Shown here one piece after another: positions 27,555 through 31,024 of a stretch of DNA of 64,000 nucleotides (its first letter is position 1; each line of letters starts with the position of its first letter). Source of the stretch: Phycisphaerales bacterium (GTDB lineage: Bacteria; Planctomycetota; Phycisphaerae; Sedimentisphaerales; UBA12454); contig PLMU01000006.1 of assembly GCA_003142595.1 (NCBI GenBank), forward strand, positions 209,666 to 273,665. The letters are read 5' to 3'. A model generated the notes under the pieces. It did no database searches, was not told the origin of the DNA, and saw nothing but the letters and a program-made list of their open reading frames with translations. Position numbers and translations under genes: made by a program.

Positions 27555-28097
27555 CTATTTTCTCTGGTATTTACCCATCAGCGAGCCTTCGGCAATAATG
27601 TGGTTTTTCATAGCATCAAGCAAATCTTTCTTTTTAGAATTGGCCGGCAGGTCAAGCATCGTATCCAGGGCATAAACCTTGAAATAGTATCTATGCGTTC
27701 CGCTCGGCGGGCAAGGGCCGTCATAACCATTCTGCATGGAATCGCTAACGCCCTGCTTTGAGCCGTTCTGAAGCTCTTTTACCACAGGAATGCCTTCAGC
27801 CAGTTCGTTCACCTCTGGAGGTATGTTCCACATTACCCAGTGAACCCAAACACCAATAGGAGCATCAGGGTCATCGCTGATTAAAGCAAAACTTTGCGTG
27901 TTTTTCGGAGTCCGCTCCCATTTCAGCGGCGGAGAAATGTTTTTGCCGTCACAGGTGTATTTTGCAGGTATCATATCGCCCTCTTTAAAGGCCGACGATG
28001 TAATTTTAATTGTCATTTGTTTATCTCCTTCGACAATTGCCACGAAACCACAGACTATAACTATTAGCACAATAAAAACAAAATATTTTTTATTCAT
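27555..28097 (-). CDS. PEBP / YbhB-type exported protein
   Basis: A signal peptide (KYFVFIVLIVIVCGFVAIVEG) is followed by the bacterial phosphatidylethanolamine-binding domain: AKYTCDGKNISPPLKW, DDPDAPIGVWVHWVMWNI, GYDGPCPPSGTHRYYFKVYALD. The ligand pocket His and Asp are in place. Bacterial members have no settled function. It starts 23 nt after the unknown membrane protein on the same strand, so probably one transcript. Confidence 0.9.
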   Translation of the reverse strand: MNKKYFVFIVLIVIVCGFVAIVEGDKQMTIKITSSAFKEGDMIPAKYTCDGKNISPPLKWERTPKNTQSFALISDDPDAPIGVWVHWVMWNIPPEVNELAEGIPVVKELQNGSKQGVSDSMQNGYDGPCPPSGTHRYYFKVYALDTMLDLPANSKKKDLLDAMKNHIIAEGSLMGKYQRK

Positions 28098-28120: not shown

Positions 28121-28894
28121 TTATTTATTCGCATCATTTATTACAAACTTACTATTGCCTGAAAACTGGCCCATAATCAACTCGTCCAAATAATTACTGT
28201 CGTTTACATCTGCCTGTGGTATCGTAATCCAATATGAAGATAACAGCGAGAACATTGCTTCCTTGCTCTTTTGGGGCGATTCAGAAATTACTAAAACATT
28301 TTGCCTTATTTTCCCATCTTTCGAGAATATTTCAGCTTCTATTTCACCAGGGTATTTCTTCCTTCCAAAGCGTATTAAACCTTTGATTCTTTCTGTTTCA
28401 AAAATACCTATTCCATTTTGATTAAAGACATCACTCACTTTGAAAATATAAGCAGACCTAATGCGACAACATACGTTGCTCAGTTTTGAAAAAAATATTT
28501 CAGAATAGTTAATTGGCATTGCATTGGCCATTTTGACTTGTAAATCATACGTTATTTCATCGGGATTTCCCGGTAGCGAAAAAAGATATGTAATGCTATT
28601 TGAGTCATTTCTACAGCTCACACCGAGGCCTTTATTATATCTTATTAAACTGATAGAGTTAGGACACAGCGGCGCCTCGGCAAACCCCAGCGAAAACACA
28701 CAGGAATTGTTCGGCTGGGGCAACACAACTCGTTGGGGCTTTATGCTGAGGGTTTCCAGGGCCAGTGGCCGTGAAATCATTTTGTGATACGAATTACAAA
28801 TCATAATACGTGGTGTTATGTAAAGTCCAAGTATTAACAATAATACTACGATTACTACAGCCCAGATAATCCTCTTTTTTTTACTCATACTCAT
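28121..28894 (-). CDS. Unknown membrane-anchored protein
   Basis: Not recognised. A basic N-terminus (SMSKKKR) and one membrane segment at about residues 9-27 precede a soluble, presumably periplasmic, domain of 225 residues with several Cys (FSLGFAEAPLCPNS, VSCRNDSNS, LSNVCCRIRSAY). Its start codon overlaps the stop of the upstream 54-residue Cys-rich gene (ATGA), so the two are translationally coupled. Confidence 0.7.
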   Translation of the reverse strand: MSMSKKKRIIWAVVIVVLLLILGLYITPRIMICNSYHKMISRPLALETLSIKPQRVVLPQPNNSCVFSLGFAEAPLCPNSISLIRYNKGLGVSCRNDSNSITYLFSLPGNPDEITYDLQVKMANAMPINYSEIFFSKLSNVCCRIRSAYIFKVSDVFNQNGIGIFETERIKGLIRFGRKKYPGEIEAEIFSKDGKIRQNVLVISESPQKSKEAMFSLLSSYWITIPQADVNDSNYLDELIMGQFSGNSKFVINDANK

Positions 28895-29055
28895 TTTTTT
28901 CGGCGTTTTTTTGATTTATTTTTCAGGCACGCAAGGCAACGCTCATCGCTGCATATCTGGCAGTGGAAACAATCTTTGCAATTATGTTTTTTAGGGCCGC
29001 TATTACCCGGCACATATACTTTGCCGGCAATGCCCTTAATTTTCTTTAGAGCCAT
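28891..29055 (-). CDS. 54-residue Cys-rich protein, not in ORF track
   Basis: Minus-strand ORF of 54 residues: MALKKIKGIAGKVYVPGNSG, then PKKHNCKDCFHCQICSDERC, then LACLKNKSKKRRKK. Six Cys in the pattern CxxCxxCxxC-x5-CxxC and a His suggest a zinc or iron-sulfur cluster site; the C-terminus is very basic. The stop TGA overlaps the ATG of the membrane protein gene (ATGA), which argues that it is translated. I see no good Shine-Dalgarno. The family is unknown to me. Confidence 0.65.
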   Translation of the reverse strand: MALKKIKGIAGKVYVPGNSGPKKHNCKDCFHCQICSDERCLACLKNKSKKRRKK

Positions 29056-29095: not shown

Positions 29096-29917
29096 TCATT
29101 CTTTCCTACCCGTAAGAACCGCGTTATCAAGTCTTCGATGTAGAAGCGAAACAAGTGTCATCAAATCTAACGCATCTTGTTCAGTAACCTCCCACATAAT
29201 TTTCGGTGCATGACTGGTAGGATTTCTAAATGCCCCAAATACACCTACAAACAAATTCATCAACCCGCTTTGCTCGCTCTTTTCCGTATCCGTCCGCAGC
29301 GAATTGAATGCTAGGAATGGAATTCCTCCTTTGCCAAGAGCAAACGCCCTATTCGCCAACTCTCCAGCGTCTCCTGTCAATCCTGTTTTTTCACGGATTT
29401 TCTCTGAAAGGCTCTTTGTTGCTTCAAGAACAGCATGGAAATAGTTATGTTGCATAAGTTCCGCCCTGCAAAACTTCAGAACGTCAGGGTGGACTTGCCG
29501 TGAGCGAAGTTCTTTCTTTAATCTATCTGCCCGCTGTTCTGCCTCGTCAAGTGTTTGCGCTTGTGCCACAGCCGTAATATTACCTTCGTCGGTTACACAA
29601 TACCCGGCAAATGCTAAAGGTATATTTAATTGCTCTCGGAATCTGGCGTAATAATCAGGACTTTTGTGATATAAGACAGGGTTCATAACTTTCTTAATAA
29701 AGGCAAGGACATTATTAGCACAACCGTCTTGTCGCTGCCGCGATAATAAGGCTTCGTACAAGCGATGTCTTTTGGTAAAATTTGGTAACGGATCATTAAT
29801 TCCGCATTGTTTAAGATACCGTCCAATTTCAGAACCTGTCAACCCTGTATCTGTCGCACCAAGAACTTCGCAAATCGCCTCAAGTTGTGTTTCATCTATG
29901 GAAGAAATCGAAGCCAC
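29096..29917 (-). CDS. TIGR02391 (Ymh) family HEPN-like protein
   Basis: The C-terminal 130 residues match the Ymh family: HPDVLKFCRAELMQHNYFHAV, EATKSLSEKIREKTGL, then FRNPTSH at about residue 238, where R-N-x3-H is the HEPN catalytic motif. The N-terminal region is a helical extension with a possible winged helix (TDTGLTGSEIGRYLKQCGIN). Start: GTG with GGAGG 9 nt before. Family members occur in defence and accessory loci, but what this one cleaves or senses is unknown. It is the first gene of a four-gene minus-strand cluster (40-nt gap to the Cys-rich gene). Confidence 0.8.
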   Translation of the reverse strand: MASISSIDETQLEAICEVLGATDTGLTGSEIGRYLKQCGINDPLPNFTKRHRLYEALLSRQRQDGCANNVLAFIKKVMNPVLYHKSPDYYARFREQLNIPLAFAGYCVTDEGNITAVAQAQTLDEAEQRADRLKKELRSRQVHPDVLKFCRAELMQHNYFHAVLEATKSLSEKIREKTGLTGDAGELANRAFALGKGGIPFLAFNSLRTDTEKSEQSGLMNLFVGVFGAFRNPTSHAPKIMWEVTEQDALDLMTLVSLLHRRLDNAVLTGRKE

Positions 29918-29962: not shown

Positions 29963-31024
29963 CTAACAATCGATTTTTTTAATTTCCGCCTTTAGGACAG
30001 CGAAAAGATTTTTCTGTTTAACAATTGCGATTTTTTTGCCTTTTTTGTAGATAAAACCTTTATCAGCAGCGGCGCAGACGGCGATATCGGCATCGGCGGC
30101 TTCGCCGGGGCCGTTAACAATACAGCCCATTACCGCGACTCTTATTGGTTTATGAATCTCCGCCAGCAATTTTTTTGTCTGCTGAGCAAACTTAATCAAA
30201 TCCCACTGGACTCTCCCGCAGGTCGGGCAGACAACTAACTGCGGCTCATTGCTTTTGAAAAGGCCTAGCGGTTCGAGAATTTTTTTCGCTATTTCGACTT
30301 CCTGAACAGGCTCGCCTGCAATACTAATGCGAATCGTATCGCCAATACCCTGCCAGAGCAAAGTTCCCAGTGCAATCGAAGCGGGAATAATAGCGTCCTG
30401 TGCAAGGCCGGCGTGGGTAAGACCAAGATGGATTGGATAATCAAATTTTTTGGCAATTGCGCGATTCGATTCGATTGTTCTTATGACATCGGAACTTTTG
30501 ACGCTTAGAACCATATTGTTAAAGCCGCGATTTTCGAAAAGCCGGATGTAGCCTGCCATCTCCTTTATCATCAGGTCGGTTCTTTGTCTCTGAGCCGTGT
30601 CGCGCAGAAGATTTCTAATGCTTGCCTCGTTTATGCCGAGGCGGATTGCGATTTTGTGAGCCTTTGCGCAGTCGATTATCCGGTTGATGTCGTTTCTATC
30701 TTTTATGTTGCCGGGGTTGAGACGGATTTTTGCTGCGCCTGCTTCGATTGCCTCAATCGCCCTTTCGGCTGAAAAGTGAATATCGGCTATCAGCGGGATT
30801 TTCACTTTTTGAACAATCCTGGCAAAGGCGATACTGTCCGGTTTTGCAGGGATAGCGACTCTTACAAGTTTTGCGCCTGTCGCGGCAAGGGCATTTATCT
30901 GTTTGATGCAGGCGCTGATGTCTGTCGTGGGAACTTTGACCATCGATTGAATTACAATCGGGTATTTTAAGCCGATTTTGACGTTTCCTGCCGTTACTGT
31001 AGATGTTTTTCGTCTTTTTATCAT
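29963..31024 (-). CDS. ispG: 4-hydroxy-3-methylbut-2-en-1-yl diphosphate synthase
   Basis: Penultimate MEP-pathway enzyme, a [4Fe-4S] protein that reduces MEcPP to HMBPP. PIVIQSMVKVPTTDI at the N-terminus, ADIHFSAERAIEAI, KIRLNPGNIKDR and the cluster region (VVCPTCGRVQWDL, VMGCIVNGPGEAADADI) with conserved Cys are diagnostic. The length of 353 is that of the short bacterial form without the insertion domain. Its partner gene in the pathway here is ispD. Confidence 0.96.
   Translation of the reverse strand: MIKRRKTSTVTAGNVKIGLKYPIVIQSMVKVPTTDISACIKQINALAATGAKLVRVAIPAKPDSIAFARIVQKVKIPLIADIHFSAERAIEAIEAGAAKIRLNPGNIKDRNDINRIIDCAKAHKIAIRLGINEASIRNLLRDTAQRQRTDLMIKEMAGYIRLFENRGFNNMVLSVKSSDVIRTIESNRAIAKKFDYPIHLGLTHAGLAQDAIIPASIALGTLLWQGIGDTIRISIAGEPVQEVEIAKKILEPLGLFKSNEPQLVVCPTCGRVQWDLIKFAQQTKKLLAEIHKPIRVAVMGCIVNGPGEAADADIAVCAAADKGFIYKKGKKIAIVKQKNLFAVLKAEIKKIDC

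Follow-up and report, generated by a model that had tools for sequence, protein, structure and literature searches.

A 54-codon six-cysteine gene between ispG and PEBP genes of a Phycisphaerales bacterium and its relatives in Planctomycetota

The locus and the 54-codon gene

The window, i.e. the whole 64,000-nucleotide stretch of DNA analysed here, carries on one strand the order ispG, a PD-Lambda-3_B-like gene, a short cysteine-rich ORF (the Cys gene), a gene for a 257-aa protein and a PEBP gene (Table 1), where the first gene is a putative ispG, named by the likeness of its sequence to that family. The Cys gene runs for 54 codons from 29055 to 28891 (sequence MALKKIKGIAGKVYVPGNSGPKKHNCKDCFHCQICSDERCLACLKNKSKKRRKK) and holds six Cys, as the earlier note had reported for this minus-strand ORF. 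Their spacing is CxxCxxCxxC-x4-CxxC, with the x4 stretch reading C-SDER-C, one residue fewer than the x5 that had been given before the last CxxC. Translated in six frames, the window has a single match to C..C..C..C.{3,6}C..C, against none in any of 200 first-order Markov copies. The protein has a pI of 9.9 and a net charge of about +12.6, and no signal peptide was recognized in it by inspection. The gene is present as a single copy in the window's own genome.

The Cys ORF and the 257-aa ORF meet at 28894-28891, where the TGA of the former and the ATG of the latter share the sequence ATGA; the overlap of stop and start that had been described is thus present in this genome. A second in-frame ATG lies six bases further on in the 257-aa ORF (ATGAGTATGAGT), and the start of that gene is therefore uncertain. 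No obvious Shine–Dalgarno sequence was seen ahead of either the Cys gene or the 257-aa gene.

Table 1. Genes and sequence features around the Cys gene, in window coordinates
Feature	Position	Strand	Remarks
PEBP (YbhB/YbcL-type) gene	27555..28097	(-)	conserved downstream neighbour in close relatives
257-aa protein, one N-terminal predicted transmembrane or signal-anchor helix	28121..28894	(-)	without Pfam or NCBIfam match; within its family seen only in this genome
54-aa Cys-cluster protein, core KHxCxDCxxCQxCSDxRCxxC plus basic tail (pI 9.9)	28891..29055	(-)	
Conserved Cys core, residues 24-43 (His24, Cys26/29/32/35/40/43, Asp28, Gln33, Arg39)	28927..28986	(-)	invariant in both alignments, save His24 (Tyr in many second-class members)
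Hypoth_Ymh / TIGR02391 protein, candidate defence gene	29096..29917	(-)	full-length match to PADLOC PD-Lambda-3_B, E 1.3e-89
IspG-like gene	29963..31024	(-)	conserved upstream neighbour in family

Conservation, spread and likenesses of the Cys protein

By protein search, relatives of the Cys protein were found in 22 of the 161 genomes of the window's order, with 49-74% identity to the window protein, and a single-sequence scan of genome contigs gave one relative, in a public Sedimentisphaerales bacterium MAG. The alignment of order members has 12 invariant columns (G11, K23, H24, C26, D28, C29, C32, Q33, C35, R39, C40 and C43), all six Cys being among them, and most members carry a Lys/Arg tail after the Cys cluster. 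For the 15 closest usable pairs dN/dS is 0.06-0.37, indicating purifying selection. Because the Cys pattern is kept in relatives and dN/dS is low, we read the 54-aa ORF as a real gene, in agreement with the earlier note; a lack of Cys conservation in relatives, which that note had named as grounds for giving up its proposal, was not found. A spurious ORF, which the short length and the lack of any Pfam or NCBIfam match over the cut-off might suggest, can be dismissed in view of the strong conservation and low dN/dS. The presence of the gene is patchy, even inside a genus.

A profile search of the phylum turned up further carriers: the Cys core is present in 30 of 75 genomes of a second class and in 7 of 18 genomes of the order of G688. 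In both groups the core reads K(H/Y)PCxDCxxCQxCSDxRCxxC with small variations, while the N- and C-termini differ from those in the window's order. His24 is often Tyr in carriers outside the window's order, including many second-class members, and is therefore not an obligatory ligand. The basic tail is not retained in the second class, so that nucleic-acid contact cannot be family-wide on that basis.

In some carriers the core is part of a larger protein. Three genomes of genus g449 have it as an in-frame N-terminal extension of a PreP-type M16 peptidase (L081:5992-9120, L083 and L089; the domain search was run for one of the three proteins), and in one genome it is in frame with a CMD/AhpD-like domain. 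The M16 fusion starts with a GTG that shares bases with the stop codon of a gene upstream, whose product ends ...NVCGGMVM or ...NVCGGMLM. Because of these in-frame fusions and the differing termini, the Cys core is a separable module, either free-standing or fused to enzyme domains. Judged from these comparisons, we regard the carriers as a small, undescribed protein family scattered through Planctomycetota. No relatives of the Cys protein were found in viral contigs (two profiles) or in plasmids (two queries).

Searches of known families gave no match over the cut-off in Pfam, no match in PADLOC, no significant relative by PDB sequence search, and in PHROGs a weak single-member match only. 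Nothing relevant to the family was found in the literature. NCBIfam gave nothing significant, and its weak matches, with E values no better than 0.0064 (PTO1314 radical SAM, RecR and others), were taken as matches to Cys composition. Two Pfam entries scored below their cut-offs, Nuclear transition protein 2 (PF01254; 18.6 versus 25 bits, matched by 2 of 22 members) and lentiviral Tat (PF00539; 15.8 versus 22.5 bits, matched by 1 of 22 members). Both share with the Cys protein a Cys cluster beside a basic stretch, and both likenesses were put down to composition, not homology.

The structural-zinc loop of alcohol dehydrogenases is spaced CxxCxxC-x7-C. The window protein has this spacing in C26-x2-C29-x2-C32-x7-C40, which we treat as a lead only; unlike that loop, it has two further invariant Cys, and it has no PDB sequence match. 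A second likeness is to Brz of Halobacterium salinarum, a small CPxCG-related zinc-finger protein of 60 aa (PMC2253796). Members of the CPxCG-related class have <100 residues and two Cys/His pairs 7-40 residues apart, with at least one CPxCG, CPxCx or CxxCG (PMC2253796). The window protein agrees with this class in size and in pair distance (54 aa; C26/C29 and C40/C43), but its pairs read CKDC-F, CFHC-Q, CQIC-S and CLAC-L, none of them one of the three motifs; CPDC is present in some relatives. Like Brz-type proteins it is very short, consists of paired CxxC knuckles and little else, is probably Zn-bound, and is easily missed by annotation. Unlike them, it has its six Cys in one continuous CxxCxxCxxCx4CxxC run, and shows no sign of a role in transcription.

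Neighbours of the Cys gene

Within the window's family the Cys gene is placed between ispG and PEBP in several arrangements. The order ispG-Cys-PEBP is found in G283 and G284, and ispG-163 aa-Cys-PEBP in G116. G282 lacks the Cys gene and has plain ispG-PEBP; G287 lacks it as well and has ispG-164 aa-PEBP. The 163/164-aa product is a predicted membrane protein whose gene comes right after ispG and overlaps its end (G116, L027:5489-5980; G287, L103:2543-3037). Among the genomes compared, only the window genome has a PD-Lambda-3_B-like gene between ispG and the Cys gene. The family's common arrangement is ispG-Cys-PEBP, or ispG-PEBP minus the Cys gene. On the simplest reading, the ispG-PEBP interval would collect accessory genes, with the 257-aa and defence-like genes as additions in this lineage. 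In this family the Cys gene itself reads as an accessory cassette that the ispG-PEBP interval may or may not contain; in other families it is placed elsewhere.

The earlier note had paired the Cys protein, as possibly metal-binding, with the 257-aa membrane protein, and had called their junction fixed. That the two are translationally coupled partners is suggested by the ATGA overlap in this genome, and is very improbable given what the other genomes hold. Homologues of the 257-aa protein are present in four other genomes of the 161 in the order, all of them distant and none belonging to the window's genus or family. The ATGA overlap is specific to this genome, and a fixed junction is not confirmed. 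Of the four genomes, G231 alone carries the Cys gene too, and there the two genes lie on different contigs; elsewhere the Cys gene is flanked by other genes. The look for the pair in neighbouring genomes that the earlier note had advised thus found no adjacency in relatives and no conserved two-gene unit. This comparison refutes the pairing as a conserved one: the 257-aa membrane protein is a chance neighbour. The ATGA overlap would, on the simplest reading, be due to gene insertion in this lineage, not to conserved coupling; such an overlap of stop and start, seen in a single genome, does not count as evidence that two genes are partners.

In other families the neighbours are different. In one second-class family, a U32/DUF3656 (RlhA-type) gene lies directly downstream of the Cys gene on the same strand, with gaps of up to 284 nt, at nine loci (L072, L074-L076, L079, L080, L082, L086 and L087), which are most of the loci examined in that family. 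In the window's order, U32/DUF3656 genes do not co-occur with the Cys gene (8 of 22 carriers versus 36 of 137 others, Fisher p = 0.32). In f58 (L084:5483-8408) a desulfoferrodoxin gene upstream, the Cys-CMD fusion and a glucose-6-phosphate dehydrogenase gene downstream lie on one strand, and in G280, one genome, the bL28 gene adjoins the Cys gene. No consistent conserved partner of the Cys gene, which could have pointed to a target, was found across the families compared.

Possible functions

We favour, with a probability of about 0.6, a stand-alone small cytoplasmic protein whose six-Cys core would fold around metal and act as a docking knuckle. This reading is preferred because of the Cys cluster, the lack of a signal peptide and the basic tail; the first two, with the Cys cluster invariant, make metal binding as such plausible. 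The six invariant Cys, helped by the usually conserved His, would fold around metal, for which one or two Zn ions with a structural role are the likeliest candidates; an Fe-S cluster seems less likely, because canonical ferredoxins space their Cys differently. The module would then serve as a docking knuckle touching RNA, DNA or a partner protein, with the Lys/Arg tail taking part in this order. The AlphaFold model of the protein is poor (pLDDT 56) and was made with a two-sequence alignment only.

A broader proposal, which we hold tentatively, is a metal-binding plug-in of Planctomycetota, working as a targeting or redox knuckle both free-standing and at the N-terminus of PreP-type M16 peptidases or AhpD-like proteins, and tied to RNA or the ribosome in some lineages.

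Somewhat more doubtful is a narrower form of the favoured docking knuckle, in which the protein would be a Zn-binding ribosome or RNA-modification protein made of a zinc knuckle and a basic tail. The Lys/Arg tail of most order members points in this direction, as does the RlhA-type U32 gene next to the Cys gene in one family, since RlhA is a 50S-binding protein on which ho5C2501 in the 23S rRNA of E. coli depends (PMC6599085). The bL28 neighbour in one genome is also consistent with such a role. However, the order gives no U32/DUF3656 co-occurrence, the presence of the Cys gene is patchy, and the second class does not retain the tail.

An iron or redox accessory, i.e. an Fe-S or iron-binding helper for nearby Fe-S or Fe enzymes, is unlikely. 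IspG is an Fe-S enzyme, and its gene neighbours the Cys gene in the window's family; the downstream U32/DUF3656 gene in one second-class family and the f58 locus, with its desulfoferrodoxin, CMD fusion and glucose-6-phosphate dehydrogenase, would suit the same role. These neighbours vary by family, however, and G282 keeps ispG and PEBP without the Cys gene; the absence of U32/DUF3656 co-occurrence in the order and a Cys spacing unlike the canonical ferredoxin pattern also argue against it.

The Cys proteins make up a well-defined, unnamed small-protein family that curated libraries have missed, and the invariant Cys core makes its putative metal binding easy to test.
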